A stretch of DNA of 64,000 nucleotides, taken from an uncultured Geobacter sp. Its GTDB lineage: Bacteria; Desulfobacterota; Desulfuromonadia; Geobacterales; CAIOGM01. Of the stretch, positions 46,470 through 64,000 are shown in pieces. Location: NCBI GenBank assembly GCA_903857795.1, contig CAIOGM010000115.1, positions 1-64,000 on the forward strand. Reading direction: 5' to 3'. The position numbers were made by a program, and so were the translations under genes. Position 1 is the stretch's first letter. Each line of letters begins with the position of its first letter. The notes under the pieces are model-generated. The model did no database searches. It was not told where the DNA came from and was given only the letters and a program-made list of their open reading frames with translations.

Positions 46470-49301
46470 ATGCTTGAAGCCACGTTCGCAGAGTACCCGA
46501 CGCATCGTACCGCTCCGGAGCATCATGAACCGGCGAGAGGTGCGGCCACCACGCCCTTCTCCCCTCTGGATGACTCAGTTCGCTTGAAGGCCTTCCGACA
46601 CTCAACGGGCGGCGCCCCCTCTCACAACCTCCGGGATCTGGTCAGCCACTCTCACACCGTTCAGGCCACGGAGTGCGTCACGTCGACCTTCTCCCACTTC
46701 AATCAGATCCCCCATGATTTCATGCTTGTTTTGGATGAAGAGCGGCTGCTCGGCATCTGCTCGCGACGAGAGGTCGGGATGATTCTCGGTTCGGGTTTCG
46801 GGAGAGAGCTCTTCGGAAAGAAGCCGATCCGGGAGCATCTGGAGCCGAAGTGTCTCACCATCATCGAAGGTTCACCCATCGTTGAGGTTCTGTCCACGAT
46901 ATTTTCCGTGGAGGATCCCCATTACTTCAATGACATTGTATTGCTGGATCGCTCGGGTCACCCGGTGGGGCTGATTTCGGTTATCACCATGATTCGCCTG
47001 CAGCATCGTTTCCTCTTGGCGCTGAACGTGGAGCTGGAAGAATATTTCAAATTGTTCAACACCTCGTCGGACCTGATGTGCATCTTCGATCAGAACGGCT
47101 ATGTCCGGAAGATAAATCCTGCCGGCGCCACCATGCTCGGCTATTCCGAACGGGAGATGCTGGGCCACCACCTGACGGAATTTGTCCATCCCGAGGACCT
47201 CACAAAGACCAGCGGCGAGGTGGAACAGCAGAGCAAGTGCGGCGATACCGTCAACTTCGAGAACCGCTACCTGTGCAAAGACGGTACGGTCTGCTGGTTC
47301 TCGTGGCAGCTGTTTTGCGCCAGGGGAGAAAAACTCACCTATGCCACGGGCCGTAACATCAACATCCGTAAGCAGTACGAGCGCGAACTCGAAGAGACCC
47401 GTAAGGCGGCCGAATCGGCCAACCGGGCAAAGAGTGAGTTCCTCTCCAACATGAGTCATGAGATCCGTACCCCCATGAATGCCGTGTTGGGGCTGACCCA
47501 GCTGCTGGAGAAAGAACTGCTTTCACCCGACCAGCGCGACCTGGTGCAGCGAATTCGCACCGCCGGCCACTCCCTGATGGGGATCCTCAACGACATCCTC
47601 GACTTTTCCAAGATCGAAGCCGGCCGGTTGCGGATCGAGATGCGCAGCTTCATGTTGCCGGTACTCCTGGAGCAGCTGGACAGCCTGATGGGGAGTACGG
47701 CCCGCGGCAAGGGGCTCTCCCTGCAGATCGCGGCAGCGGAGGTGACCGGCGGGTTGATGGGAGATGACCTCCGATTGGGACAGGTACTGATCAACCTGGT
47801 GGGCAATGCCGTCAAGTTCACGAAGCAGGGGGAGGTCCGGATCATCGTTTCACCGGTGCAACTCGACGAGCTGACGACACGGCTCCGCTTCGAGGTCCGT
47901 GACACCGGCGTCGGCATCGCCCCTGAGGTGCTCTCGACTCTGTTCACCCCGTTTACCCAGGCCGACGACAGCATCACCCGGCGCTTCGGCGGTACCGGTC
48001 TGGGACTCTCCATCTGCAAGCATCTGGTGGAACTGATGGGTGGGGTCATCGCCGTAGAGAGTCTGGAAGGGGTCGGGAGCACCTTCTGGTTCGAAATTCC
48101 CTTTGCACGGACCGCCGCGGTCGCGGCGAAATCGGCACTTACTCCCCGGGAGGTCACCCCCGGAGTGGCGCGCCTGACGGGGCGCCGCGTTCTGGTGGTT
48201 GACGACAGCGAGATCAACCAGATCGTGGTCGTTCGAGCGCTGGCGTTGGAAGGGGCCGAGAGTGAAGTCGCGTCGGACGGCCAGCAGGCCCTGAACACTC
48301 TGCGGGCAGAGCCGGAGAAGTTCGATATCGTCCTGATGGACGTGCAGATGCCGGTGATGGACGGGCTCGCCGCCACCCGGCTCTTGCGCGGTGACCCTCC
48401 CCTCGCCGGACTCCCCGTCATCGCCTTGACCGCCGGCGTGCTCCAGGAAGAGCGGCAGAAGGCGCTGGACGCCGGTGTCGATGACTTCCTTCCCAAACCG
48501 GTGGATCTGGAAGAGCTGGTCGCCATGCTCCTCCGTTGGCTGCCTCCCCCCCGGGTAAAGGCGGCGGCAACGCCCCCCCTGGCGACGCCCCTCCCGCTTC
48601 CACCCGATCGAGACCAGGGGGAGATAGGAGCGTTGTCGCTCCCCGGTCTGGAGTGCGCCAAAGGGATCGCCCGCTGCGGTAGCGAGAAGCTCTACCGGAG
48701 ACTGATCGGCGAGCTGCTGCTGCGACATGGCGACGATTGCGACCGGATCGGGCGGGCCGTTGCTGCGGATGACCTCCCCGAGGCGACACGGATCAACCAT
48801 ACGCTGAAAGGGGTGGCCGGCAACCTGGACGCCGCCACTCTGTACCGGATCGCCGCGGAGTTGGAAATTGCACTGAAGGAGTGCGAGCGGGATGCGATTG
48901 ACCGGCTGCTCCTCGGATTAGCGGCAGCCATGGAGGAGGTAAAGGGGGGCGCGGCGCTGTTCAAGGAGGCGCCCTCCCCGGAGGTGAGCGTCCCTGTTCC
49001 GCTTCCGGAGATGGGAGAGATTTCTCCTCTCTTCGAGGAGTTACTGCGGCTGCTTCAGGAACGCCGCATGTCCGCCCAACGGGTGGCGTATCAGTTGATG
49101 GGGCAACTCTCCTCCACAGTCCTGGCGCCGGAGGTGGCGCTGCTCTCCATGGCTGTCGACCGCCTGGAGTATCTGGACGCTCACACCATGGTCCGCTGCC
49201 TGGCTGACCGGTTTACTGAACTCCACAGCGACATCCTTCCTCCAGCGCCCCCTCTCCCTGTCAACTGTTCCCCCCTTTTGCCACGACGTCGCCAAGCCTG
49301 A
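46470..49301 (+). CDS. CBS-PAS hybrid histidine kinase with REC and Hpt
   Basis: 943-aa cytosolic kinase. The N-terminal 190 residues carry a CBS-pair-like region ([39 protein letters not shown]). A PAS domain (about 190-305) follows, then HisKA with [14 protein letters not shown], HATPase with [19 protein letters not shown] and [11 protein letters not shown], a receiver with [11 protein letters not shown] and FLPKPVDL, and an Hpt domain with [16 protein letters not shown] pairs usually bind adenine nucleotides, so it may read energy state. No membrane span is present. The final 14 codons overlap tail-to-tail with the chemoreceptor on the other strand. A PHO-type promoter precedes it. Confidence 0.92.
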
Positions 49302-52300
49302 AGAAGGCCACGGTCCCCTGGAGGTGGGTGGCTTGGGAGGAGAGCTCCTCGGCGGTGGAGGCCATCTCTTCCGCAGCCGAGGCGTTCTGCTGGATCACCC
49401 GGTCCAGTTGCTGAATCGCCTTGTTGATCTGCTCCCCTCCGCTCTCCTGCTCCTTGCCAGCGGCATTGATCTCCTGCACCAGCTCCGCCGTCCGCCTGAT
49501 GTCCGGAAGAATCAGCCCCAGCATCTCCCCTGCCTGTTCGGCTACGGCGACACTGGATACTGAGAGCGTGGAGATCTCCCGGGCCGCGGCCTGACTCCGT
49601 TCGGCCAGCTTGCGCACCTCCGAGGCGACCACGGCGAACCCCTTGCCGTGCTCCCCGGCCCGGGCCGCCTCGATGGCCGCATTCAGGGCCAGCAGATTGG
49701 TCTGGCGGGCGATCTCTTCGACGATGGTGATCTTCCCCGCGATCTCCCGCATGGCGGCCACGGTCTCGGCGACTGCCCGCCCCCCTGCCGTGGCTTCCTG
49801 GGCCGCCTTGCCGGCGATCCTGTCGGTCTGTCGGGCATTGTCCGCGTTCTGCCGGATCTGGGAGGTCATCTGTTCCACGCTGGAGGAGGCCTGTTCCGCT
49901 GCGGCAGCCTGGGAGGAGGCGCCATGTGAGAGATTCTCGGCTCCGGAGCTGAGCTCCAGGGAGCCGGCGGCCATACTGTCGGCCGCGATCTTGACCTCGC
50001 TCACCACGGAGGTGAGCTGGCGGACCATGGCGATGTAGGCCTTCATCAGCTCGTCATGGGGGGAGCGCTCCTTCAACTCCACCATGAGGTTGCCTGAGGC
50101 GATCTCCCGGGCGCTTGCGGTGATCAGCTGCTGCGCCCCGATGAGATCGTTGAGGTTGTCAATGATGATCCGGTACTCCCCCTGAGAGCGATCCGTGATT
50201 CTGGGGGGAATCTCCCCCGTGGCGATCCGGTCCACATAGCCGGCGGTGAGCCTGAGCGGGGTGACGATGTTGGTGATGGTAGCGTTAAAGCCGACCACCA
50301 GGGTGTGCCATCCCCCCACGAAGAGGCCGGCATCGGCCCGCCGCTCCAGGTCGCCGGTGGCGGCGGCTTCGATGATCGTGTCGGTTTCGGTGAGGAGAGC
50401 GTTCATCATCCCGACCAGGGCATTCAGGTTCTCCTTGATCTCGCAGAAATCGCCCTGGTAGCTGTCGGTGATGACCGGGGGGATGACCCCCCTGCTGATC
50501 TTCTCCACATGGGCGGCGGCCATGTTCAGGGGGGTGATGACGGCGTCCAGGGTATCGTTGACCCCGATCATGATCCTCCGGAACTCCCCCTGGTGCCGGG
50601 TGACATCGGCCCGGGTATCCAGCCGCCCGGCCACGGCCGCCCGGGAGAGAAGGCCGGCATCCGCCACCAGCGAGTTGACCGCGTCGATGCAGGTGTTGAT
50701 ATTGTTCTTGAGGGTGTTGAAGTCGCCCCGGTAGGTAACGGTGATCTTCTCGGGGATATCCCCCCTGCTGATCCGCGCCACATACTCGGCCGCCTCATTC
50801 AGCGGGCCGATAAACGCATCGAGCGTCTCGTTGACTCCCGCCATGACCCTGCGGAACTCTCCCTGATGACGGGAGATGTCGGCCCGGGCCGCGAGGTTGC
50901 CGTTGACCGCGGCCAGCGCCAGGTCGTTGGCGTCGGAGATGAGGCCGCTTACGGCGTCGATGCAGGTATTGATGTTGTCCTTGATCTCATTGTAATCACC
51001 GTTGTAACTGTCGATGATCTTGGGGGGGATGTCCCCCTTGCTGATCCGGTCCACGTACTCGGCGGCCATGTTCAAGGGGGTGATGACGGCGTCCAGGGTC
51101 TCATTGAAACCGGCCACGATCCTGCGGAACTCTCCCTGGAGGTGCGTACTGTCCGCCCGGACCGCCAGGTTGCCGTCGATGGCCGCCCGGGCCAGGAGCC
51201 CCACATCGCTCACCAGGGTGTTGACGTTGTCGATGCAGAGGTTGATGTTTAACTTGATGGGGTTGAAGTCACCCGGGTAGGTGTCGGTAATCTTCTCCGG
51301 GATATCTCCCTTGGAAATCCGGTCCACGTACTCCGCAGCCATGTTCAGCGGACCGATGAAGGCGTCCAGGGTCTCGTTGACCCCGGTCATGATCTTGCAA
51401 TACTCTCCCTGATGATGGGACGTATCCGCCCTGATGGCCAACTTCCCCTCTACGGCTGCCTGCGCCAGGAGGACGGCATCGGAGACGAGGGCGTTGATGT
51501 TGTCGATGCAGTTGTTGAGATTCTGCTTGATGGCGTTGAAATCGCCCTGATAGCTGTCGGTGATCCTGGCGGGGATGTCGCCCCGGGAGATGCGATCCAC
51601 ATGCTCCGCCGCCATGTTCAGCGGCCCGATGATGGCGTCCAGGGTATCGTTGACCCCGATGACAATGTTTCTGAAATCCCCCTGATGCTTGGTGGGATCG
51701 ACCCGGGTCGCCAGGTTCCCGGCGATTGCCGCCTCGGTGAGCATGGAAAAATCCGCGATCAGGGTGCGCACCGTAACGACCATCTTCTCCATGGCCCCCA
51801 TGAGCTGGCCGATCTCGTCATTGCGCCTCGCCTTGAGCGAGGTATCGAACTGGCCTCCCGCTATCCGGTTTATTGCCTCGATGGATGACGCCAGCGGTCG
51901 GGCAATGGAACGATAGATCCAGACTCCCATGACGACGCCGAACAGCAGAGCGGCACATCCCAGAGAGATGATCAGTATGGTGCTGGTCCGCACCACCCCG
52001 TTCACCAGGACGATCGCCTTTTCCTGATTTTCCTGAGCCTGTGAGCCGATCTTGCTCCCCTTGGCCGCCTGCCGGGCGACGATGGTATGGATCTTTTCCG
52101 TGGAGGCCGCCGCCCGTTCCTGCATCTCCAGGTTCTTTTTGATCCTGGCGATCACCCCTTCCTTCTCGTAGAGGAGGGCTCTGGTCATGTTCAGGTGCCC
52201 GACCACCCCCCCCAGGGTCTGCAACTCCTGTTCGGCATGCATCTTCTTCAGGGCATCGGTCACCCGGCGCTCCGTCTCGCTCAGTTTAACGTACTCCTGC

Positions 52301-53370
52301 CGGATGGAGGCATCCACGGCAGAGATCTCCTTCCCGGAGGTGAGAGACAGGAGTCTGGAGGAGAGAGCATTTATGTAGACCCCCTGGGCGACCAGGCGGG
52401 CATTGTCCGCCAGGATCCCGGTAGCGAGGCTGGATTGACCGTACAGCCCCGCCTGTCTCCTGGACTCCGCACCGTAATTCGAATTCGTGGTGGTCACCTC
52501 CTGCTCCAGGGTCAGGCTGAGGGCCATGATCTTCTCCTTGAGTTCACGCAGAAGCAGATCGTAGCGCTGAGAATCACTCCCGGGGCGGTCGATGAGCGCA
52601 CTCTTGAGCGGAATCAGCTCATCGGCCAACTGCCCCAGTTGCACGATGTCGGGCCGCATCTCGGGGACTTCCTTCAGGTAGTCATTTTTCAGACTCTTGG
52701 CGATGATCGTGTTATAGCGCCCTTTCGCCACGATGAGCCCCTTCCTGGTGTGGCTGAGATCCAGCAGTGACACCGCCTGGGGCAGCTCCTTGGTGATCGC
52801 CTTGATGGCCTCGGCGTTTCTCAGGTTGGTGGAGATGTTCCCCGATTCCACCACCGATGTGGAGTACGCCGCGGATTTCCCGTCCTGAAACGTGCGAATC
52901 CGGGCATCGAGCCCCATGAGCCGGGCGATGACCTCCTTCAGCTTGGCGTCAATCACCAGACTCGCGTCATGCAGCCCCGCTTCCGCCTTGAGCCGCTCTT
53001 CGGTAACCCCGAGGAGTTCGTTTCTGACCGGCGTCAGCTCCTCGTACACCTTTGACCGCTCGCTTCCGCCCAGGACGTCCAGCGCTTCCTGGGCCTTTTG
53101 CACCTCGGCCAGGGATCGTTCGGCCGAGACCCGGGCCGTGTCGAATTCTCCCCGGTTTCGAGAGGCGCCGACCCTGGTGAGAGCGGACATGGTCCCCTCG
53201 ATGGCCAGCTGCAGTTTGGTCGTCCGGACCTGAAAGGGGGTACTCTGTTCGGTGAGGAAGGAGAGGCGTTCCTGGATAAAGCGCATCCCTAAATAACCGG
53301 TTACGGAGACCACTCCAGCCATGAGAGTCACGACAAACCCGTTCAGAATCAGCTTGCTCTTGATCGTCAT
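49261..53370 (-). CDS. Giant poly-HAMP methyl-accepting chemotaxis protein
   Basis: 1369-aa chemoreceptor. TM1 is at about 7-26, a long helical periplasmic domain extends to about 455, and TM2 ([20 protein letters not shown]) follows. A canonical HAMP ([22 protein letters not shown]) leads into a chain of di-HAMP units of about 91-92 residues. Six copies of the (I)SxGDIPxxITDxYxGDF element and matching GxLxxRAD elements are visible. The signalling domain has [19 protein letters not shown] and [14 protein letters not shown]. Most receptors have one HAMP. It lies 34 bp after a PstS-like gene and is probably co-transcribed, so phosphate or a related anion is a reasonable ligand guess. Confidence 0.93.
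50190..51730 (-). repeat. Tandem 274-bp coding repeats (di-HAMP units)
   Basis: The GDIP-coding motif recurs at about 50207, 50480, 50755, 51029, 51300 and 51574, a period of about 273-276 bp. The units match strongly at DNA level, so they can recombine in frame and change receptor length. Confidence 0.88.
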
Positions 53371-53404: not shown

Positions 53405-54169
53405 TCATCGCTTCACCAGGGATTGCCCCCCGGCCCGGATGAATTCAAGGAGTTTCTTCAACGGTTCCGAGGGATTGCTTCTTGTGATGAGGACGATATC
53501 CCGGAACAGTTCCGGAATCCTCGGAGTCGCCACCGAAGCATCCACCACCCCCAGCGGACCGATCCCGATGGCGTTGGGGTTCGCCGCCACGTTCTGGCGC
53601 ACTTCAGAGGCGGTAGTGGTATCCAGCAGCTCGGCCGCCAGTGGCGCTCCCCGCAGGATCCGTTCCTGGAAGATCGAATTATCATCCTGCATGAGGGTTC
53701 CCCAGACGATCATGATCGGGGCGTCTTCGCCGCCGACCTCGTTCCAGTTCCCGATTGTTCCGGAAAAAATTCCGCGGAGCTGGTCGGCGGTGAGGGACTG
53801 CACCGGATTGTCCTTGTGGGTCATGACGACGATGCGATCCGTACCGATGCTCACCGGAGTAAACAGCGACGGGTTGTCCAGGGGCGCCCCTTCCTTCGCC
53901 ATGAGCTGCTGCCACTCCTGATAGGAGAATCCGGCTGCCGCGGCGTCCAGGCTGGCCCGTTTGAGATCGGTAAACGCGACCTTCGGTCCGGTTTCGATGA
54001 TGATCAGCTGGATATCCGTCGCCTCCTCGAAGGCGCTCTTGAGCGGCCTGAGGATATCCTCCGCAGGAGCGGAGCCGGCGCCGATTTTCAGCTCGTCGGC
54101 GCCGCCGGTGAGTGGCGCCAGAGAGAGGATGACTACAAGGGCTGCCAGGATTACACCGTAACGATCCAT
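53405..54169 (-). CDS. PstS-like periplasmic substrate-binding protein
   Basis: About 254-aa precursor with signal peptide ([20 protein letters not shown]). The mature part follows the PBP-like phosphate-binding pattern: [81 protein letters not shown]. The start at 54169 is chosen because AAGGAG lies just upstream. It lacks permease partners and is followed by a chemoreceptor, so it may present an anion to that receptor instead of a transporter. Similar to but shorter and more diverged than the PstS at 31426-32445. Confidence 0.82.
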
Positions 54170-54208
54170 GATCGACTCCTTCATGCAGCTTTCCCTTCAA
54201 CAAAGAAT

Positions 54209-54320: not shown

Positions 54321-54929
54321 TCATGGGTTACGGTTGCTCTTCTTGCGCCACAGCGCCGCCCCGGCCATGCCGAGCCCCAGGAGGAGTACGGTAGACGGTT
54401 CGGGAACCGGAGAGGTTGACGGTCCGTAATTCAAGGCCGTGGAGCCATCGGTCCGGAGCGCCGCCGTCATGGCGAGGCCGCTGGGATTGTTGGTAAGGAG
54501 CGGGGTGAACTGGTCGGCGGCGAACATGCTGAAGCCGAAGTCGCTCCCGCCACCAGCCGTCCCGTTGGGAGAGCTCACGGCCGGGCCGTCCAGCAGGAAC
54601 GTGAAGTGAATCGAGTTGCCAAAGTTGAACCCCTGGAAATAGTCATTCCAGGAGAAGCTGTTGCCGAGAGTCACCGTCCCCGGAAGGGCTCCGGTAACAT
54701 CTCCGGCGGTAGCGGGCGCCCCTGTAAGGGAACCACCCGACGTCTCGAAACTGAGGAGCTGGGCGAAGGCGGACTGGGCGTTGTTGCCGGGATTGAACTG
54801 GAACTCCAGGTAGCCTGACTGTCCGGCGACGGCCGAGGTGTTTACGTACACCTGGTGAGTTTGCGGGGCGGCAGAGGCGCTCCCCACTGTCAGCAGCATG
54901 AGGGCGAAGAGTGCGATTAACAGCTTCAT
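54321..54929 (-). CDS. PEP-CTERM sorting-domain protein
   Basis: 202-aa secreted protein. Signal peptide LLIALFALMLLTVGSASA-AP; a beta-rich, Gly/Ser/Asn-rich middle (GYLEFQFNPGNNAQSAFAQL); and a C-terminal sorting signal of PVPEPST, a hydrophobic helix LLLGLGMAGAAL and basic tail WRKKSNRNP. It should be processed by exosortase and placed at the surface or in exopolymer. It is 11 bp downstream of the metallophosphoesterase gene and so probably expressed with it. Confidence 0.92.
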   Translation of the reverse strand: MKLLIALFALMLLTVGSASAAPQTHQVYVNTSAVAGQSGYLEFQFNPGNNAQSAFAQLLSFETSGGSLTGAPATAGDVTGALPGTVTLGNSFSWNDYFQGFNFGNSIHFTFLLDGPAVSSPNGTAGGGSDFGFSMFAADQFTPLLTNNPSGLAMTAALRTDGSTALNYGPSTSPVPEPSTVLLLGLGMAGAALWRKKSNRNP

Positions 54930-54940
54930 GGGTCAGCTCC

Positions 54941-57889
54941 TTACTGGGCCTGATAGGTGACAGGCGTGAACGTGATGAGGGCCTTGGCCGGGTTGGTGAA
55001 CGTGAGCGGCAGAGTCAGCGATTGGCCCGGGTCCAGGGCGGCGGCCAGATCCGCATGGGGATAGCCGTTATAGATACCGGAAGCGGTATCCAGCGTGACC
55101 CCCGCAGTCAAGTTGTTGAACCAGACGACAAACGGTCCGGAGAGTGCGGTCGCCCCGCTGTTGGTAAGGGTCAGAGTACCGCTGAATTTGTTGGTGACGC
55201 GGCTGTAGAGGAAACCGGATGTTTTCGCCTTGACCGATGACGAGATATCGGTAAGGGCAAACGGAGCCACGGCGAAGTCGCCGCCATGATTGATGACCGC
55301 CCAAGCGCTGCCGGTGGCGGGATCAATACCGTAGCTGCCGAGAGCATAACCGGCATTCCAGGGCCCTTGTACGAACCTGATGACGCCGCCGCCGTTTTTG
55401 GCCACGGCATTGATCCACCGGCCATCGCGACTCCGGGTGGCCAGGCCAAATTCGCCCCCCTGGAGCTGTGAGGCGGTCAGAGTGCGCGGGTCATAGGTGA
55501 GTGAGAGGACATAGGTGTCGGTCTGCTCGCCGGGGACAACGTACTTGTAGTGGTAATTAGGGTTGCTGAGATCCGTGAAGTCGGTGGCCAGGCTGTTTGT
55601 CATCCCCCAAAGAGTCAGGATGTCGCTGGTCAGGCCGTTTTCGGCAGGGGTCCAGCCGGTGTTGACGGTTTTGGTCAAAGCCCGGTTGTTGTAGTCTTTG
55701 CCGCTGCTGCCGTTGATGCCGCTGAGGACGGCTGCGGTGGTACCGAGGTAGCCGCTCTCGCTGGCTGCAGCCTTGGCTGTGGTGTCGGTCAAGGCGTAGC
55801 TGCCGCCCTGGGGGACGAGAACTTCTTTGCCGTTCAGGCTGTAGCCGTAGCTCTCATGCCTGGTGAACGGAACGGTGTCGTAAGGAATGACATCGATGGT
55901 CTGATCACAGTCACCGTTGCAGCCGTTGGGCATGGCGTAATGCTCCACGGTAACCTTCGGTCCATCAACGGTGTAGATGTAATAACCGACGGTGAAGAGC
56001 TCCTGGGCGATGGGGGTTTCACGACTCCGCCAGCTCTGGGTATTGAACGCCGCCATGGTCGGCGGGATATAAAATTTATAGCTGTCGGAGGCGCCGATGA
56101 TGTTCTGCACCCTGGAAAGCCCGTCAGGGCTGGTCACGAGAGCGCGGTTGTGCATGTGGTCATGGCCGCCCATGTAGTAACGGACGCCATTATTCTGCAG
56201 GTAACTCATGAAGGTGTTCGTCAGAGGCCACGTGGTCCCGGTGGCGGTGTCGGGATTGGTGCTGTTGAAGAGGTTGTCGTTATGGTTTTCGGTGATCAAC
56301 CCCTTATGCCCGAAGACGAAGGCGTGGCTGTTCGCAGGCCTCGTGGAGAGCTGAGTCCCGACCCAGGCCACGTCCGTACTGTTCAGGTTGGCATGGGACG
56401 TACCGCTGGGGAGGGTAAACTGATCCAGGAACACAAAGCGACTGTTGTTGTAATCGAAGGAGTAGGTAAGTCCTTCAAGCCCGGTTTCCGTCGCGTAGTT
56501 GTTGCCGACAGAGAAGGTACCGTTGCTGTTGGTCTGAGAACCGTACATGGTGGCTGATACCATGTTCGGCGTCTGATTGTTCACCCCGCTCTGGGTCTGG
56601 GGGAAGATCTGCTGGAACCTGATCGCTCCGGCCGCCGATGACTCATGGTTGCCGCGCAGCGGGTAGAAGCCGATACCTGAATTGTAAAGATCCTGGGAAA
56701 ACGTTGCCCGTACATCAAGATTGATGTTGTTGGTGCCGACAGCGTCGGTGAGGTCGCCGACCTGAACAACAAACTTGACCCCCTGATCGATGAATTTCTG
56801 ATTGAGATGTCTGATGACGTTGACCGCCACGTTGGGGTTTTTCCCGTCGGGGGAGGTGGGCCACTGGGTGTCCGACATGACGCCGAACTTCCACGGCTTT
56901 GCCGGCATTTTGAAAGAGTCGTAGCTCGACACCGTGGAGGCGGCGGATGCGGGAGCGTCGAGGAACTTCATCTCCGAGCTGATGGTGCCGTCGTCGTTCA
57001 CGGTGATAACGGCATAGCCGAACCGGGCGTTGCCGCCGGCTCCTCCGGCATAGCTCACGACTTTCAGGTTGGGATCGGCCAGATAATTCGGGTCACCCGG
57101 TACGAGGGTGGGATTGTCCTGGGGAGCACCGCCGGTGCCGATGATCAACTCCTGGAAATTATACCCTTTCTCGGTAATCCGCTGATAGCTGTGGACATGG
57201 CCGGAGAAATAGAGATCCGTACCGCCGGAATTAAGATCATCGGCGAGGCCGGCGGGGCCGAGTTCACCGCTCTTCAAATTCCAGAGCGGCTGATGGGCAA
57301 AGACGAACTTGTGCTGGGCCTGTTTGGCCAGTTGTGCCTTCAGGAACGAGCCGTCATACCCTGTTGCGCCTGCCGCGCCGTTGGGGTATTCGTCCAGGCC
57401 GACGAAGAGCGACCCCTTGTGAGTGAAGGAGTAGGTCAGGCCACTCTGGGCGCTGTCCTGGATAATCGGGTTAACGGCGGGAATTGTGATGTGGCTGTTC
57501 CACGTCGCCGCAAGGTTACCGGCGTCGTGGTTGCCGCGAACGAAATAGACCGGGATCCCGGCGTCGGTTACCGGTTTCATCTGAAGATTCCACTGGTCAA
57601 GTGCTGCGGCAAACTGGGTATCGTTCAGGGCCGGCTTCTTCCCCCTGGCCAAGTCGCCGGGGTAGAGCACGAAATCGAGACCGGTCTCCCGGGACAATGC
57701 CGACGCGACGTTCTGAAAGTAGGGAGAGATGCCGTAGGTGGCGTCATAATACGCCGGAAGACCGTCCGTTGAATAACTGGCGCGGCTGTCGCACAACACG
57801 GCAAATTTCCAGGGCGCCGCCGAGGCGGACAGGGCAAGGGCCAGTGTCAGAACCAGGGATGCAGCTGTTGTAAATCGAATTCTCCTCAT
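54941..57889 (-). CDS. Secreted tandem-domain metallophosphoesterase
   Basis: About 982-aa exported protein; the start at 57889 follows CAGGAGGAAT and opens the signal peptide (ASLVLTLALALSASAA-PW). There are two calcineurin-like phosphoesterase domains. The first has FAVLCDSRA, YPGDLARG, VRGNHDAGN, FAHQPL and SGHVHSYQR. The second has FGVMSDTQW, QVGDLTDA, LRGNHESS, FGHKG and GGHDHMHNR. In both, the first His of the usual DxH motif is replaced (CDSR, SDTQ), so metal use may differ. The last 350 residues include beta-sandwich-like segments, not a PEP-CTERM tail. With a PHO-type promoter, it is likely a phosphate-scavenging phosphatase or phosphodiesterase. Confidence 0.88.
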   Translation of the reverse strand: MRRIRFTTAASLVLTLALALSASAAPWKFAVLCDSRASYSTDGLPAYYDATYGISPYFQNVASALSRETGLDFVLYPGDLARGKKPALNDTQFAAALDQWNLQMKPVTDAGIPVYFVRGNHDAGNLAATWNSHITIPAVNPIIQDSAQSGLTYSFTHKGSLFVGLDEYPNGAAGATGYDGSFLKAQLAKQAQHKFVFAHQPLWNLKSGELGPAGLADDLNSGGTDLYFSGHVHSYQRITEKGYNFQELIIGTGGAPQDNPTLVPGDPNYLADPNLKVVSYAGGAGGNARFGYAVITVNDDGTISSEMKFLDAPASAASTVSSYDSFKMPAKPWKFGVMSDTQWPTSPDGKNPNVAVNVIRHLNQKFIDQGVKFVVQVGDLTDAVGTNNINLDVRATFSQDLYNSGIGFYPLRGNHESSAAGAIRFQQIFPQTQSGVNNQTPNMVSATMYGSQTNSNGTFSVGNNYATETGLEGLTYSFDYNNSRFVFLDQFTLPSGTSHANLNSTDVAWVGTQLSTRPANSHAFVFGHKGLITENHNDNLFNSTNPDTATGTTWPLTNTFMSYLQNNGVRYYMGGHDHMHNRALVTSPDGLSRVQNIIGASDSYKFYIPPTMAAFNTQSWRSRETPIAQELFTVGYYIYTVDGPKVTVEHYAMPNGCNGDCDQTIDVIPYDTVPFTRHESYGYSLNGKEVLVPQGGSYALTDTTAKAAASESGYLGTTAAVLSGINGSSGKDYNNRALTKTVNTGWTPAENGLTSDILTLWGMTNSLATDFTDLSNPNYHYKYVVPGEQTDTYVLSLTYDPRTLTASQLQGGEFGLATRSRDGRWINAVAKNGGGVIRFVQGPWNAGYALGSYGIDPATGSAWAVINHGGDFAVAPFALTDISSSVKAKTSGFLYSRVTNKFSGTLTLTNSGATALSGPFVVWFNNLTAGVTLDTASGIYNGYPHADLAAALDPGQSLTLPLTFTNPAKALITFTPVTYQAQ

Positions 57890-57980
57890 CTGAAATATTC
57901 CTCCTGTAACGGGGTGTGTGTTGCTCGCCTGACGTCCATCCGGACTACTGCTATTGGTTACATTTACCTCCTTCGCTTTT

Positions 57981-58034
57981 AGCGTAGCAGACAATTGTTG
58001 CAGGTATCTGTCGGTGCTGTGCCAGTTGTGAAAA
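57981..58034 (-). promoter_or_regulatory. PHO-box promoter of the metallophosphoesterase operon
   Basis: On the minus strand: TTTTCAC, GGCACAG, GACAGAT and GCAACAA at 11-bp steps, 8 nt, then TACGCT (57986-57981). The third half-site is the weakest. The predicted start is near 57974, about 85 nt before the ATG. Confidence 0.62.
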
Positions 58035-58147: not shown

Positions 58148-59203
58148 TTACCCGACCCGGTCCGGATGGACGTGGAAGGTGAGCCGGGAACCGGTGACGC
58201 TGCTGCGTCCCGTGTAGAGAAAGATGACAAGCCACAATCCCTGGAGCGCCAGGAGCGGGCCGGGGCGCCAGAGCGCGCGAAACGCCGCGGAGATGTCAAC
58301 GGAGAGACCATTATCCGCTGGCGCCAGGGTCCCCATGAGCACGGCGCCGATGATCCCCAGGAGTCCCATGACCTGGTAGGCGCTGAACCTCCCTTCACCC
58401 CGGTAATCGGCGCGGAACTGCTCGGAGATGACCCGCCACCCCTGGGTGATGATGAGGGTGATCAGGGCCGCAGCAGTGACGTGGAGCGAGAGGAAGAGAT
58501 AAAAGCCGGCAAGCCCCGTGATCACATAGATGACCGCGGTCACCGCCTGAATCGGTAGCAGCGGGACCCCTTCCAGGTTCCCCGCATAGACCGCTTTGCG
58601 GGTGGCGCCGTAAAAGGTGAAGGCCCGCCCACGGAACAGGCGTTGGATGACCGGTGAACAGCGCCCCAGCGGTGCGCCGTAACAGCAGCCAAAGCTGATG
58701 CAGGCGACTCTGCCGAGCCCTTCGCCGAAGGCATGGGATATGGCCAGGGCCGCCAGTGACGGCACATAGGGGAGCTGAGCGGAGCTGAAGCCGCCGATCA
58801 TCCCGTTGATGAGCAGAATGAGCGGATAGATGAGGAGCAACCCGGCGAAAGAGGCGCCGCCGACGGTGAAGGTGTGGGCCTTTTTCTCCACCACCAGGGC
58901 GATCAGCCTGGACGCCGGAACGCAGACCGCCAGTATCCCGACGGTGAGGGCCGCCGCCAGGAAGAGCGGGACCCCGACGCCGGCCATGAGCAGCAGGAAA
59001 ACTGTGGCGGCGATGAGATAGGCGGTGGCGCTCAATGCCCCGTACCAGGTGAGATTGAGCCCGCTCCAGCTCCCCCCCACCTCTCTCTCCAGGGGGATTG
59101 CGGCGATCATCTGCCATCGCTCCCGGGGAAGAATCAGGACTCCCCAGAGCAGCAGGGCGGCGGAACCGGACCCCAGCAGCAGGGTAACCAGCAGGTTGTT
59201 CAT
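58148..59203 (-). CDS. Lgt-family (prolipoprotein diacylglyceryl transferase-like) membrane protein
   Basis: 351-aa polytopic membrane protein. The start at 59203 overlaps the stop of the upstream Psd-like gene (ATGA). About eight hydrophobic helices are visible. The Lgt signature region reads GEGLGRVACISFGCCYGAPL, keeping the Arg of GRIGNF and the YG but with GCCYG in place of GELYG. The late motif SEQFRADYRGEGRFS matches the second arginine region. Lgt moves diacylglycerol from phosphatidylglycerol to a cysteine and releases glycerol-phosphate. The variant signature suggests a different acceptor. It is the last gene of a three-gene coupled operon under a PHO-type promoter. Confidence 0.8.
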   Translation of the reverse strand: MNNLLVTLLLGSGSAALLLWGVLILPRERWQMIAAIPLEREVGGSWSGLNLTWYGALSATAYLIAATVFLLLMAGVGVPLFLAAALTVGILAVCVPASRLIALVVEKKAHTFTVGGASFAGLLLIYPLILLINGMIGGFSSAQLPYVPSLAALAISHAFGEGLGRVACISFGCCYGAPLGRCSPVIQRLFRGRAFTFYGATRKAVYAGNLEGVPLLPIQAVTAVIYVITGLAGFYLFLSLHVTAAALITLIITQGWRVISEQFRADYRGEGRFSAYQVMGLLGIIGAVLMGTLAPADNGLSVDISAAFRALWRPGPLLALQGLWLVIFLYTGRSSVTGSRLTFHVHPDRVG

Positions 59204-60234
59204 AGGTTGCTCCTCTCTTGTCGGGTGGGTCGGGCGATGAGCGAGCGGACCCTTACCTCGGTCTCGGCCAGGGGAAGGCCGAACCCGAGGGTGAAGCGGC
59301 TCTGCACCTCGGCCCGTCTCTGGTTGAGGAGGAGGTCGTCGCTGAAGCGAACCCGCCCCTTTTGGAAGATGAGGATGGTCGTGCTGCTTCCCGGCCGGAA
59401 GAGGCTCTTGGGAACCCCTTTCCGGAGCCACATCCCCACAGTAACCGGCCGAGGGGCATCATACCGCTGGTCGCTGTACCGCTGCTCCACGACACCGATC
59501 ATCAGGGCCGACACCTCCACCATGGCCACGAGTCCGACCCCGGAACCTTGGGGGAGGTCGGTATCGATGATCGTCACCGTCCGCCGGTTCCGGGAGTAGG
59601 GGGTCACCACCTCCACGATCGCCTGGGGGTTGCAGGAGTGGTACTCCCCGGTCAGCTCGTAGAGGTCCGCTACCCGGCCGGCCACCGGGGTGTGGTTGTA
59701 GTGATAGAGTTCCGGGGTGAGCCGGCAGACGGCCGCATCGCCGTCATGAAAGGCGCAGAGCCAGAGCGGCTTCCCCAGGAGTTCGTCTAGGGTGAAGAGT
59801 TTTCCCTTCAGGAAGAGCGCCGACTGTGTGGCGCAGGAGCCGATGATGACCCGGGCGTCCACCGGCGAAACCACGGCGTCACCCTCTTCCGGCAGGGGGC
59901 GGCAACTCTCGTAGCGGATCTTGCGTTCGAAGATCCGGCGGGGGGTGGTGAGGCTCTCGGGGGGATCAAGGCATTCGTCAAGGTCGATGCCCGCCTCCTT
60001 CAGGAACCTCGCCCCCCCGGTCAGGCGACCGCCGAGGAAGAGGTCATAGTTCACGAACCCCAGAAGCGCGGTCATCCGGCTACCGGTCACGGCCCGGAAG
60101 AGGAGCGGCGCCCGTTCCCGCAGCCGGCCGTAGAGAAACCCGATGACCCGATCCCAGTAGAGCCGCTCGTTGAGCGGTGCGCCGCTCTCCCGCTGCAGGT
60201 ACTGGTGCGCCGGTTGCTCACCCCTGCTCTTCAT
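59200..60234 (-). CDS. Phosphatidylserine decarboxylase-family pyruvoyl enzyme
   Basis: 344-aa Psd-family protein. All autocleavage and catalytic elements are present: VVSPVDARV (Asp126), ELYHYNHTPVAG (His178, His181) and the self-processing site PGSSTT (Gly282-Ser283), with the Ser expected to become the pyruvoyl group. Psd converts phosphatidylserine to phosphatidylethanolamine. The N-terminal 110 residues are not the usual membrane anchor of the short bacterial enzyme. ATGA overlaps at both ends couple it to the 798-aa gene and the Lgt-like gene. It could be a second Psd or act on another carboxylated lipid; the substrate is inferred. Confidence 0.85.
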   Translation of the reverse strand: MKSRGEQPAHQYLQRESGAPLNERLYWDRVIGFLYGRLRERAPLLFRAVTGSRMTALLGFVNYDLFLGGRLTGGARFLKEAGIDLDECLDPPESLTTPRRIFERKIRYESCRPLPEEGDAVVSPVDARVIIGSCATQSALFLKGKLFTLDELLGKPLWLCAFHDGDAAVCRLTPELYHYNHTPVAGRVADLYELTGEYHSCNPQAIVEVVTPYSRNRRTVTIIDTDLPQGSGVGLVAMVEVSALMIGVVEQRYSDQRYDAPRPVTVGMWLRKGVPKSLFRPGSSTTILIFQKGRVRFSDDLLLNQRRAEVQSRFTLGFGLPLAETEVRVRSLIARPTRQERSNL

Positions 60235-62627
60235 GGGCCCCCCGTGGCTGCTCGTTCCAGGTGGTTGAGGATAAGGAGGAGCTGGATCAAGGCGCCGAGC
60301 TCTTCCTGGGAGAGTTGGTCGGCGAGAATCCGCGCCCGCAGGGGGGTGAAGAATTCCAGCACCCCCCTCCCTCCCAGCAGCAGGTGGAGCGCCTCGCGGC
60401 CCTCCGCTCCAGCTGAAATCCGGCCGCTCTCCAGCCGCAGCAGCTCCTCGTCCAGTTGGGCGAGAGCCTCTTCCAGGTGGCGCCGCCGTAGGGTCTCCCG
60501 GTAGTAGCGCTCCGCGGCCTGATTGAACTCGGTTCCGGTGAGGGAGAGAGGGGTGCGGGCGCCTGCTTCGCCGCAGATTCCCGCGGTAAGGCGACCGCCG
60601 GCCGAGCGCTCTCCGGGTGAGGTCAACCGCTCTTCCAGATCAGCCATGCTCTCTCCCAGGTTGAGCGCCTCGATCAACTCGGCGCCATCGTTGCGGATTA
60701 CCGCCAGCAGGGCCAGGCGATAAGCCTCGGTGGGAACCCGCAGATAGCCCGGGTAGCGATGGCTGGCACGCACCCCCTGACTCTTCCGGACCACCGCCAG
60801 CAGCACCTGGTTTCGGCTGTCACTCTTCACGTAAAAGGTGGGGATGCCGGTGGCCACGGCAAAGACGACCTGACGCCGCTCGCTCTCGATGAACGGGTCG
60901 TCGGGGATGGCGTCATGGGTTATCGCTCCCAGGGCGATATACTGGAGCGCCAGCGACTGGAGCAGGTTCTGGAGACCGGCGGCCCCGGCCAGATCGGAGG
61001 TGAGACTCTCGAAGAGGCTGTAATGGCGTCCTTCAAACCCGGAGAACCCCATCTGCCGGTACTCTCGCAGCTTGCAGAACTGGTAGAGCGCCATCCGCCG
61101 GTCAAAGACCCCCAGATCCCCCAGATCCTGCTTGAGCCGCTGGTCGTTCCCCGGCATACCGTCCAGGGCCGGGCTCCGGTCGGTGCTCATGAGCGCCACC
61201 ATGTAGTCAATGAGCCGGTAGTCGGTGACGAAGTCTCCCTTGAGGCCGCAGACCCTGCTCACCCCCTGATCGAGCCAGGTGGGACCAAAGGGGGTCACCG
61301 GCTGACCGAAGAGCTTGATGGACGCTTTCTTGCGCCACCGCCGCCAGAGCATCCGGAGGTGGGTGTAATCCAACTCGTGGGGAAGATAGCCGAGCACTTT
61401 TTCCGGATGAAAATCGGCGAAGTCCAAGCGGTAGGGGGCGGCGCTGTAGCTTCCGACGAAGAGCGGGAGAAAATGCTCCATGATCTTGATGACCAGGTCC
61501 CCCGCGTACTTCTCACAGCGCTCCGTGCCGGCGCCACCGGCCCGGTGGCGCTCCCCCAGCATCCGGCTGCCGAGGCTCAGGTGGGTGCCGTTGTTGGCCA
61601 GGCTGATGGTGGAGGTGGAAGGGAGCACGATGAGGTTGTGGCGCAGGATCCCCGCATCACGGAGCTTGGCCACGGCGTTGAGTTGACTCCGACTCAGGAT
61701 CTCATGGCAGAGGTGCATATAGGAGTGCTTCTCTTCCCCCTTGTCCCACCCCGACAGGCAAGGGTTCATGAACAGTTCCCGGTAGAAAGAGTCGGAGATG
61801 GCGGAGTTGAGCTCCCTCTGCCGTACCGGCGGATGGGGGGAGTAGAAGACCCGGCACTCCTGCCCCAGCTCCTTCAGCCTGAAGGCGCGGTTGGCATAGC
61901 TTACGAGAAGTTGGGTCACCAGATATCGCCGGGCCGTCTCCCGGGCGATGCCGACTCCGGCTGTTTCACCGGGGAGAGAGGTGACGATCTGGAAGGAGTG
62001 GGTCTCCGGCGAGGTGTTGTCACTCAGGAAATGATCCATGAGCCGGTCGGCCGTGGCGCCGATCAGGGGGTGCAAGGCGCCGCCGGAGGCCTCGACCAGG
62101 GTCAGCCGGAGCAGGTAGCTGATGGGAATCCGGAGCCACTCTTCCCCTGTCTCCATGAAGACGAACCGCTCCCGGTCGCTCCGGTACCCGGCTTCGGGGA
62201 GGCTCCGCTGGGAGCGGAGATCCCGGTCCAGCAGCTCCGCGCCCCTGGCGCTGAGGAGCCTCAGGGGGAAACGGACCCAGCTGTTGTCCCAGAGCTGTTC
62301 CGTGTTGGCGCCCAGAAACCGCTCCAGGTCGGTGACCGCCCGCCGGGGGAGATCACCTGCCGCAGCCCGGCGGAGAATATTGGCGAAATAGTTGGAGCGT
62401 TCGATCATCAGCGGCAGATCGACCTCCTCCCGGCGCCCCAGGACCACGGCCTGAAGCTCAGTTTCCGAACCAGCCGTGCAGTCGCCGGCGGAGAAGGGGA
62501 GATGGGCCGCCAGCAGTCCCGGCGGGACCCCCTCCACGCCGAGGTAGTTTCGGATCTCCTGAAGGGTCGGAGTCGCCGCCGGAGAAGCGGAAGATGTTGC
62601 CTGGAAGGCGTCGCCATGTCTGATCAT
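60231..62627 (-). CDS. 798-residue protein of unknown function, first gene of the Psd/Lgt operon
   Basis: No family recognised. The protein appears soluble and mostly helical, with no signal peptide. Distinct stretches that look conserved in character are STISLANNGTHLSLGSRML (about 340), YRLDFADFHPEKVLGYLPHE (about 405), TPFGPTWLDQGVSRVCGLKG, FVTDYRLIDYMVALMSTD and ITHDAIPDDPFIESERRQVV. The C-terminal 110 residues are coiled and charged. Its stop overlaps the Psd-like start by ATGA. The ATG has no Shine-Dalgarno sequence, and the predicted transcription start falls on its A, so translation may be leaderless. The position suggests it makes or loads the substrate used by the two lipid-type enzymes, but that is inference. 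Confidence 0.75.
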   Translation of the reverse strand: MIRHGDAFQATSSASPAATPTLQEIRNYLGVEGVPPGLLAAHLPFSAGDCTAGSETELQAVVLGRREEVDLPLMIERSNYFANILRRAAAGDLPRRAVTDLERFLGANTEQLWDNSWVRFPLRLLSARGAELLDRDLRSQRSLPEAGYRSDRERFVFMETGEEWLRIPISYLLRLTLVEASGGALHPLIGATADRLMDHFLSDNTSPETHSFQIVTSLPGETAGVGIARETARRYLVTQLLVSYANRAFRLKELGQECRVFYSPHPPVRQRELNSAISDSFYRELFMNPCLSGWDKGEEKHSYMHLCHEILSRSQLNAVAKLRDAGILRHNLIVLPSTSTISLANNGTHLSLGSRMLGERHRAGGAGTERCEKYAGDLVIKIMEHFLPLFVGSYSAAPYRLDFADFHPEKVLGYLPHELDYTHLRMLWRRWRKKASIKLFGQPVTPFGPTWLDQGVSRVCGLKGDFVTDYRLIDYMVALMSTDRSPALDGMPGNDQRLKQDLGDLGVFDRRMALYQFCKLREYRQMGFSGFEGRHYSLFESLTSDLAGAAGLQNLLQSLALQYIALGAITHDAIPDDPFIESERRQVVFAVATGIPTFYVKSDSRNQVLLAVVRKSQGVRASHRYPGYLRVPTEAYRLALLAVIRNDGAELIEALNLGESMADLEERLTSPGERSAGGRLTAGICGEAGARTPLSLTGTEFNQAAERYYRETLRRRHLEEALAQLDEELLRLESGRISAGAEGREALHLLLGGRGVLEFFTPLRARILADQLSQEELGALIQLLLILNHLERAATGGP

Positions 62628-62687: not shown

Positions 62688-62705
62688 ATTTCCGTTTTTG
62701 CAGAA

Positions 62706-62759
62706 TTCACACAATCTTTACCTCCCATCCATACAATCTTGTTCTTGATCTCGTACCCT
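62706..62759 (+). promoter_or_regulatory. PHO-box promoter of the first small-protein gene
   Basis: TTCACAC (62706), TTTACCT (62717), TCCATAC (62728) and TTGTTCT (62739) at exact 11-bp steps, 8 nt, then TACCCT (62754-62759), the same -10 hexamer as at psiE. It is back-to-back with the minus-strand promoter, 18 bp apart. Confidence 0.75.
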
Positions 62760-62800: not shown

Positions 62801-62995
62801 ATGATTTACTACAAGAACAGCCCGGTGGAGAGATCGGCAGGAATGTACCTGAGATCGGAGATTCGCATCCTCTCTGCCGACGAGGTCAACCAGCTGGTCA
62901 GCGAGAGAAAGATCACACCGATCACCGAGATCACCTACAGCAGGAACTGCAGCAGAATCAGCCGGCCGAGAAACTGGGTGAATTACGACCGGTAA
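62801..62995 (+). CDS. Small basic protein of unknown function (64 aa)
   Basis: The ATG at 62801 follows GGGAGG with good spacing. The sequence is basic and Tyr/Arg-rich (MYLRSEIRILSADEVNQLV, SRNCSRISRPRNWVNY) with a single Cys and no signal peptide or membrane span. A second in-frame ATG at residue 15 also has a GGAGG-like site nearby but is less likely. It is unlike any family I recognise. It lies 35 nt after a predicted PHO-type start site and opens a plus-strand run toward nspC. Confidence 0.65.
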   Translation: MIYYKNSPVERSAGMYLRSEIRILSADEVNQLVSERKITPITEITYSRNCSRISRPRNWVNYDR

Positions 62996-63288: not shown

Positions 63289-64000
63289 ATGCCGCAGATA
63301 CATACCCCCTATTACCTCATCGACGAGAGTCGATTGCAAAAAAATCTTGAGATCATCCGGCTGGTTCGCCAGGAGAGCGGCGCCCGGTCGGTTCTGGCGC
63401 TGAAATGCTTTTCCACCTGGTGCGTGTTCGATCTCATGCGGCAATACATGGACGGCACGACCAGCAGCTCGCTCTTCGAGGCGCGGCTCGGGCATGAGAT
63501 GTTCGGCAAGGAGGTGCATGCCTACAGCGTGGCGTACTCCGCCGAAGAGCTGGATGCGGTGAGCGCCTTCGCGAACAAGGTGATCTTCAACTCCGTCTCC
63601 CAGCTGAAACTCTTCCGCGACCGGGTCCACGGAGTGAACGTCGGGGTGCGGGTCAATCCGGGGGTCAGCCACTCCCACTATGACCTGGCAGATCCGGCAC
63701 GCAGATATTCGCGGCTGGGAGTCAGCAACTATGAGGAGCTCCAGGATGTAATTGGGCTCATCAACGGGATGATGTTCCATTTCAACTGCGAAAACGACGA
63801 GGTGGCCACCATCGCCGCGGCCCTGGAGAGCATCGGCGCCAGATATGCTCCCCTCCTGGAGCGGATGGAGTGGGTCAGCCTCGGCGGCGGCATCTCGTTT
63901 ACGAAAGAGGGGTATCAGCTGGAGAGATTCTGCGCGGTTCTGAAGGAGTTCGGAGAGCGGTACGGGGTTCGCCTCTATCTGGAACCGGGCGAGGCGGCCA
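63289..64000 (+). CDS. nspC: Carboxynorspermidine/carboxyspermidine decarboxylase, 3' end outside the window
   Basis: First 237 residues of a PLP-dependent alanine-racemase-fold decarboxylase that turns carboxy(nor)spermidine into (nor)spermidine. The PLP Lys is in LALKCFSTWCVFD. Family motifs MDGTTSSSLFEARLGHEMFGKEVHAYSVAY, VNPGVSHSHYD, FHFNCEND and WVSLGGGISFT follow the NspC pattern, here split by my reading into adjacent pieces. The start at 63289 follows GAGAGG. Its usual partner, carboxyspermidine dehydrogenase, is not in the window; it may follow beyond 64000. A PHO-type promoter in front is unexpected for polyamine synthesis. Confidence 0.88.
   Translation, partial: MPQIHTPYYLIDESRLQKNLEIIRLVRQESGARSVLALKCFSTWCVFDLMRQYMDGTTSSSLFEARLGHEMFGKEVHAYSVAYSAEELDAVSAFANKVIFNSVSQLKLFRDRVHGVNVGVRVNPGVSHSHYDLADPARRYSRLGVSNYEELQDVIGLINGMMFHFNCENDEVATIAAALESIGARYAPLLERMEWVSLGGGISFTKEGYQLERFCAVLKEFGERYGVRLYLEPGEAA

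Follow-up and report, generated by a model that had tools for sequence, protein, structure and literature searches.

Anaerobes of phosphate-limited sediments and aquifers replace their phospholipids, and only for a few classes of lipid have the genes for doing so been identified. The described systems of phosphate starvation, that is, the Agt/PlcP glycolipids, the OlsF/OlsB ornithine lipids, and the BtaA/BtaB betaine lipids, have in common their phosphate (Pho) linkage. Here, we describe an operon from an uncultured Geobacter sp., located on a stretch of 64,000 nucleotides of contig CAIOGM010000115.1 (hereafter, the window; assembly GCA_903857795.1, 4.05 Mb in 179 contigs), which encodes a protein of 798 amino acids (aa) without known sequence family, a Psd-like protein, and an Lgt-like protein. 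The operon can be likened to the three known systems in its Pho linkage, in the phospholipid replacement proposed for it, and in its glycosyltransferase and phospholipase C neighbors; unlike in those systems, none of its three enzymes belongs to the known pathways. The module works like a phosphorus-free lipid pathway and yet fits under no known one. We consider the chances about even (a probability of roughly 0.5) that the three genes form one Pho-linked metabolic module that makes a phosphorus-free membrane lipid on the cytosolic side of the inner membrane. The physiological setting for such a module is real, since in the deltaproteobacterium D. alaskensis, glycolipids and ornithine lipids take the place of more than 90% of the phospholipids when phosphate is limiting (PMC5193443). 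In the open-access literature, we found no description of the three enzymes together, of inverted Lgt homologues, or of Lgt in phosphate starvation, which is not in itself proof of novelty.

The coordinates of the open reading frames (ORFs) and their overlaps bear out the operon proposed in the initial annotation, with a 4-bp ATGA overlap at both junctions, and place it on the minus strand (Table 1). The exact 4-bp overlap is not constant across the family, being found at 7/64 and 14/61 junctions of the two kinds; the junctions between the 798-aa and Psd-like genes are tightly coupled, with 60 of 64 either overlapping or at most 50 nt apart. The operon is not confined to this one genome. The 798-aa protein is encoded in 25 of 58 related genomes, and the Lgt-like and Psd-like profiles match precisely these 25 genomes, with no hit in the remaining 33, which makes the co-occurrence obligate in this set. 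The chance probability of two such matching presence patterns is ∼1e-32 with phylogeny ignored, a figure inflated by kinship, and presence of the module is patchy within genera. Co-occurrence in other genomes, on which the initial annotation had staked its reading beforehand, was therefore found in a strong form, and conservation excludes chance as the origin of the operon. Beyond close relatives, the 798-aa protein marks 269 loci in the species genomes of GTDB, mostly from Geobacterales, Syntrophales, and Desulfobacterales, with a few in metagenome-assembled genomes labeled Acidobacteria, Brocadia, and Nitrospinae; in a phylum-wide sample of Desulfobacterota, it is found in 32 of 297 genomes. 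Cultured carriers of the module include Trichlorobacter thiogenes, Geomonas silvestris, and Citrifermentans bremense. Present in about a tenth of the sampled phylum, the module thus offers a testable genetic way into a pathway that has yet to be assigned.

The linkage of the three genes tolerates insertions and a change of order and is nonetheless kept. Across the best 80 of the 269 GTDB loci, which we used to survey the neighborhood, the Psd-like gene adjoins the 798-aa gene in 77. Five genomes have no Lgt-like gene in the fetched flank (three of them no Psd-like gene either), and in all five, the Lgt-like gene was found elsewhere, with the Psd-like gene adjoining the relocated Lgt-like gene in three. 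A minority of loci carry insertions between the module genes, and in one (L059), the transferase gene precedes that of the 798-aa protein. Loci of the Syntrophales type have a gene for a DksA/TraR-like zinc-finger protein between the Psd-like and Lgt-like genes (L060, L078, L081, L083, L085, L090, L099, L100, L102, and L107).

The source genome also encodes a canonical Lgt and a canonical Psd, both located elsewhere by a genome search. The Lgt-like and Psd-like proteins are therefore additional, diverged paralogues, and we rejected an identification of the module with the cell's standard phosphatidylethanolamine or lipoprotein pathway. The Lgt-like protein matches the Pfam family LGT (PF01790) below threshold (21.8 and 22.5 bits in two scans versus a cut-off of 24.9), with seven of its relatives above the cut-off (maximum 44.5) and one below, and the only confident PDB match of its model is E. 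coli Lgt (EcLgt; 5azb, probability 1.00, E value of 1.5e-3). With Lgt, it shares the predicted fold, the spacing of the signature region, and the equivalents of Y26, R143, R239, E243, and R246 (Y54, R165, R257, E261, and R264), which are invariant in 41/41 homologues; G154 also maps to an invariant residue. These positions come from a profile alignment, except for that of Y26, whose WYG motif falls beyond the aligned block and was paired by visual inspection. In contrast, H103 of EcLgt is replaced by V/I/A/T, N146 by C, N149 by F, and E151 by C. The altered signature GCCYG, already pointed out in the initial annotation, lies at residues 172 to 176, with both of its cysteines invariant in the 41 homologues, as is C168 in addition to C173 and C174; the observation is thus extended here by the loss of the acceptor residues, the retention of the transfer arginines, and a predicted inversion. 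Mao et al. (PMC4728403) report that diacylglyceryl transfer by E. coli Lgt requires R143 and R239, that H103 is likewise indispensable, with the HGGL motif to which it belongs put forward as the site of the lipobox peptide, and that mutants of E151 have no activity. With the transfer arginines kept and H103 and E151 lost, the Lgt-like family appears to have kept the phospholipid side of the reaction and lost the lipoprotein side.

The charge of the loops suggests that this enzyme also faces the other way. In all 41 homologues, lysines and arginines concentrate on the active-site side (17.6 versus 2.0 on the other side), the opposite of canonical Lgt (5.3 versus 12.5 in 19/19), with helix boundaries taken from the model for the Lgt-like protein and from its annotation for EcLgt. 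By the positive-inside rule, the Lgt-like protein is apparently inverted in the membrane, with its active site toward the cytosol, and an extra N-terminal helix (nine helices are predicted versus seven in EcLgt) would account for the flipped topology. All three enzymes would then work at the cytosol. Also unlike Lgt, the family is always accompanied by the genes for the 798-aa and Psd-like proteins.

The assignment of the second gene to the Psd family, made in the initial annotation, is confirmed by a match to PS_Dcarbxylase (PF02666; 117.7 bits, E value of 6.6e-34) and by an intact self-cleavage triad. Aligned with the solved E. coli Psd (7cnw), with which the homology extends over ∼180 residues, the family has invariant D126, H178, H181, and S283/S284 as the processing site, that is, the D-H-S triad and the second histidine. 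Since the triad is kept, the Psd-like protein should cleave itself into a pyruvoyl enzyme. It stays under all NCBIfam equivalog cut-offs specific for phosphatidylserine (120 bits versus 371 and 69 versus 111.75) and, unlike canonical Psd, belongs to a separate subfamily that occurs, among the tested genomes, only where the module is present, with a canonical Psd alongside.

The 798-aa protein has no match at an E value of ≤1 in Pfam, NCBIfam, or PHROGs, and a sequence search of the PDB found nothing; Cat1 and NifB were considered as relatives and rejected, as their matches are at chance level. Its AlphaFold model, built with 67 sequences, is confident (mean pLDDT of 88.8, pTM of 0.91), and the top 10 Foldseek matches in the PDB are all chains of E. 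coli gamma-glutamylcysteine synthetase or of bifunctional GshF, with yeast glutamate-cysteine ligase (GCL) and Dop/PafA ranking lower. The best structural matches are thus ligases of the gamma-glutamylcysteine synthetase/glutamine synthetase (GS) fold (GshA 1v4g, GshF 3ln7, yeast GCL 3ig5, and PafA/Dop). Invariant in 67/67 sequences are E55-x-E57 on a beta-hairpin, H349 within NNGTH, and E532-x-R534, all of them on strands. An ExE hairpin, a strand histidine, and an E-x-R motif follow one another in the same order in GshA-type ligases, as E27-x-E29, H150, and E328-x-R330 of E. coli GshA (numbering verified against that sequence), which we take to be its metal- and ATP-binding residues. Because the Foldseek hits are consistent and the order of the motifs is shared, and not because of any single strong E value, we regard a glutamate-cysteine-ligase/GS ligase fold as quite likely, and the protein is probably an ATP-dependent carboxylate-amine (amide) ligase. 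Unlike GshA, GshF, and GCL, it has no detectable sequence similarity to these enzymes, is ∼800 aa long with large insertions, and matches no Pfam family. What the initial annotation called an unknown large soluble protein therefore still has no sequence family, and structure prediction narrows it down to a probable amide ligase of this fold.

Both gene context and promoters connect the family to phosphate. Within the flank of 31 of the 54 loci of at least 15 kb, there are pst, phoU, ppk, ppx, pit, or pstS-like genes, compared to 0 of 20 arbitrary 19-kb regions from five carrier genomes. De novo motif discovery, trained on 67 nonredundant regions that all lie upstream of the 798-aa gene, with pstS promoters held out, returned a direct repeat with an 11-bp period (log-likelihood of 172 versus ∼60 for shuffled sequences). 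The motif reaches at least 12 bits in 9 of the 15 held-out pstS promoters versus 5% of 154 background upstream regions, and since it is found in these promoters so far above background, it very probably represents the Pho box that these organisms use; a scan with an E. coli-style Pho box was barely above chance, and the de novo search was clearer. The Pho linkage of the module is thus well supported at the family level, which is the part of the initial annotation's claim of PHO control that stands. The Pho-box-like site of the window faces a short divergent ORF of ∼64 aa, at the place of which two relatives from the same genus (L029 and L030) have longer divergent ORFs.

Other neighbors recur as well, namely DUF2062, a zinc-dependent phospholipase C, and a glycosyltransferase in which a PHP domain is fused to GT4. 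The DUF2062 membrane protein and the phospholipase C are often encoded just downstream of the Lgt-like gene (L082:13370-13885 and L095:14000-14947), and the PHP-GT4 fusion, of ∼815 aa, often lies beside or inside the module (L035, L037, L041, L064, L071, and others). This fusion, a candidate phosphate starvation glycolipid synthase, is present in 23 of the 58 relatives, in 17/25 with the module and 6/33 without it, and is thus associated with the module and not obligate. OlsB/F-type acyltransferases, found in 8 of the 58 relatives, four of them with the module, are not related to it in any clear way, and their scarcity leaves room for another aminolipid.

On the basis of these data, a phosphorus-free lipid could be made in three steps. 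The 798-aa ligase, using ATP, would join a carboxylate, perhaps the gamma-carboxyl group of glutamate, to an amino acid, for instance cysteine or serine; the pyruvoyl Psd-like enzyme would take the carboxyl group off the joined amino acid residue; and the Lgt-like enzyme, facing the cytosol, would transfer diacylglyceryl from phosphatidylglycerol or another phospholipid to the product, which would free glycerol phosphate for reuse. Alternatively, a diacylglyceryl-amino acid might be formed first, followed by decarboxylation and then ligation. We tentatively propose, as a possibility well short of probable, that the product represents a new class of phosphorus-free bacterial membrane lipids, in which a decarboxylated, amide-linked amino acid head group such as gamma-glutamyl-cysteamine is joined to diacylglyceryl by a thioether or ether bond, made by a new family of GS-fold ligases and by the first inverted Lgt family enzyme, one that lipidates a small molecule and not a protein. 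The diacylglyceryl thioether of gamma-glutamyl-cysteamine is a guess by analogy, chosen because gamma-glutamylcysteine synthetase joins glutamate to cysteine and Lgt alkylates cysteine. If true, this would give a function to the unannotated 798-aa family and reveal an Lgt relative that is flipped in the membrane and has a new acceptor. Of the interpretation given in the initial annotation, the co-occurrence, the phosphate link, and the altered Lgt hold, and a phosphorus-free aminolipid as product is what we infer from them.

Several observations weigh against a Pho-linked lipid pathway. The fold similarity of the 798-aa protein is weak (E value of 0.015, with none below 0.01, TM score of 0.25 to 0.42, probability of up to 0.97), and a profile-profile comparison of this protein with ten GshA/GshF sequences gave nothing. 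The fetched flanks of 23 of the 54 long loci contain no Pho gene, and the motif score stays under 12 bits in 55% of the upstream regions of the family. In the window, the Pho-box-like site is oriented toward the divergent side, as elsewhere in its genus, so that PHO control of this copy of the operon, as claimed in the initial annotation, is likely and not proved. Finally, the substrates that we name for the enzymes are guesses.

The same enzymes could be arranged in other ways. The intact triad of the Psd-like protein, a ligase fold that works on amines, and a phospholipase C neighbor as a sign of lipid turnover would all suit a module that modifies aminophospholipid head groups, in which an ethanolamine lipid formed by the Psd-like enzyme would receive an amino acid on its amine from the ligase, and phospholipid would be remodeled or hydrolyzed by the Lgt-like enzyme. 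We judge this unlikely, if the least so of the alternatives: a canonical Psd is already encoded elsewhere, and the retained diacylglyceryl-transfer arginines and the Pho linkage would be left without a clear reason, with no phosphate saved. That the module makes a soluble Pho-induced metabolite (a thiol, an osmolyte, or a cofactor), with the Lgt-like protein acting as a transporter or dead as a transferase, is improbable. Ligase and decarboxylase are enzymes of a soluble type, several catalytic residues are replaced in the Lgt-like family, and canonical gamma-Glu-Cys synthetase is missing from these genomes, which makes a role in thiol supply possible; the invariance of the Y26, R143, R239, E243, and R246 equivalents nevertheless indicates that catalysis on phospholipid has been kept.

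Quite improbable, in our view, is a lipidated peptide or small protein as the product, made or trimmed by ligase and decarboxylase and anchored by the Lgt-like enzyme, as in the maturation of lipoproteins or natural products. Canonical Lgt does lipidate a peptide cysteine, the pyruvoyl Psd family does contain tryptophan decarboxylases, and the GS-fold enzyme PafA does ligate proteins, but the family has lost the HGGL histidine and the signature glutamate that lipobox peptides require (PMC4728403), the neighboring clusters examined include no recurrent gene for a precursor peptide, and the active site is predicted to be cytosolic. The insertions and the changed order of L059, variations found in a minority of loci, would fit with there being no common pathway at all and the genes being a Pho-linked cassette of unrelated phosphate-scavenging functions traveling together. 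We consider this very improbable, as the three presence patterns match perfectly in 25 of 58 genomes and the genes are kept even when they are split apart.

Table 1. Position of the operon and of surrounding features in the window
Feature	Coordinates	Strand	Basis or remark
798-aa protein gene (UNK)	60231..62627	-	ORF; without known sequence family
Psd-like gene, 344-aa pyruvoyl-type decarboxylase, PS_Dcarbxylase family	59200..60234	-	PF02666 match
Lgt-like gene, 351-aa membrane protein of predicted Lgt fold (ATG at 59203)	58148..59203	-	model, profile alignment
ATGA stop/start overlap, 798-aa gene to Psd-like gene	60231..60234	-	read from ORFs
ATGA stop/start overlap, Psd-like gene to Lgt-like gene	59200..59203	-	read from ORFs
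Pho-box-like direct repeat ATTCACACAATCTTTACC, 77 nt upstream of 798-aa gene	62705..62722	+	motif score of 19.1 bits
Short divergent ORF	62801..62995	+
Calcineurin-like phosphoesterase protein	54941..57994	-
PEP-CTERM protein	54321..54929
PstS-like periplasmic binding protein, downstream context outside the conserved triad	53405..54184	-	PF12849
Chemoreceptor	49261..53370	-
Orn_Arg_deC_N protein	63289..64000	+	runs off the end of the window

Directly 3' of the operon, the window encodes a protein of ∼1000 aa with two calcineurin-like phosphoesterase stretches, which adjoins the operon mainly within the same genus and is followed by the PEP-CTERM protein and then by the PstS-like protein. The chemoreceptor, of 1369 aa, has a HAMP stretch and six HAMP_2 stretches ahead of its MCP signaling domain, which amounts to a poly-HAMP array. 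At the other end of the window, the Orn_Arg_deC_N protein resembles carboxynorspermidine decarboxylase (NspC).

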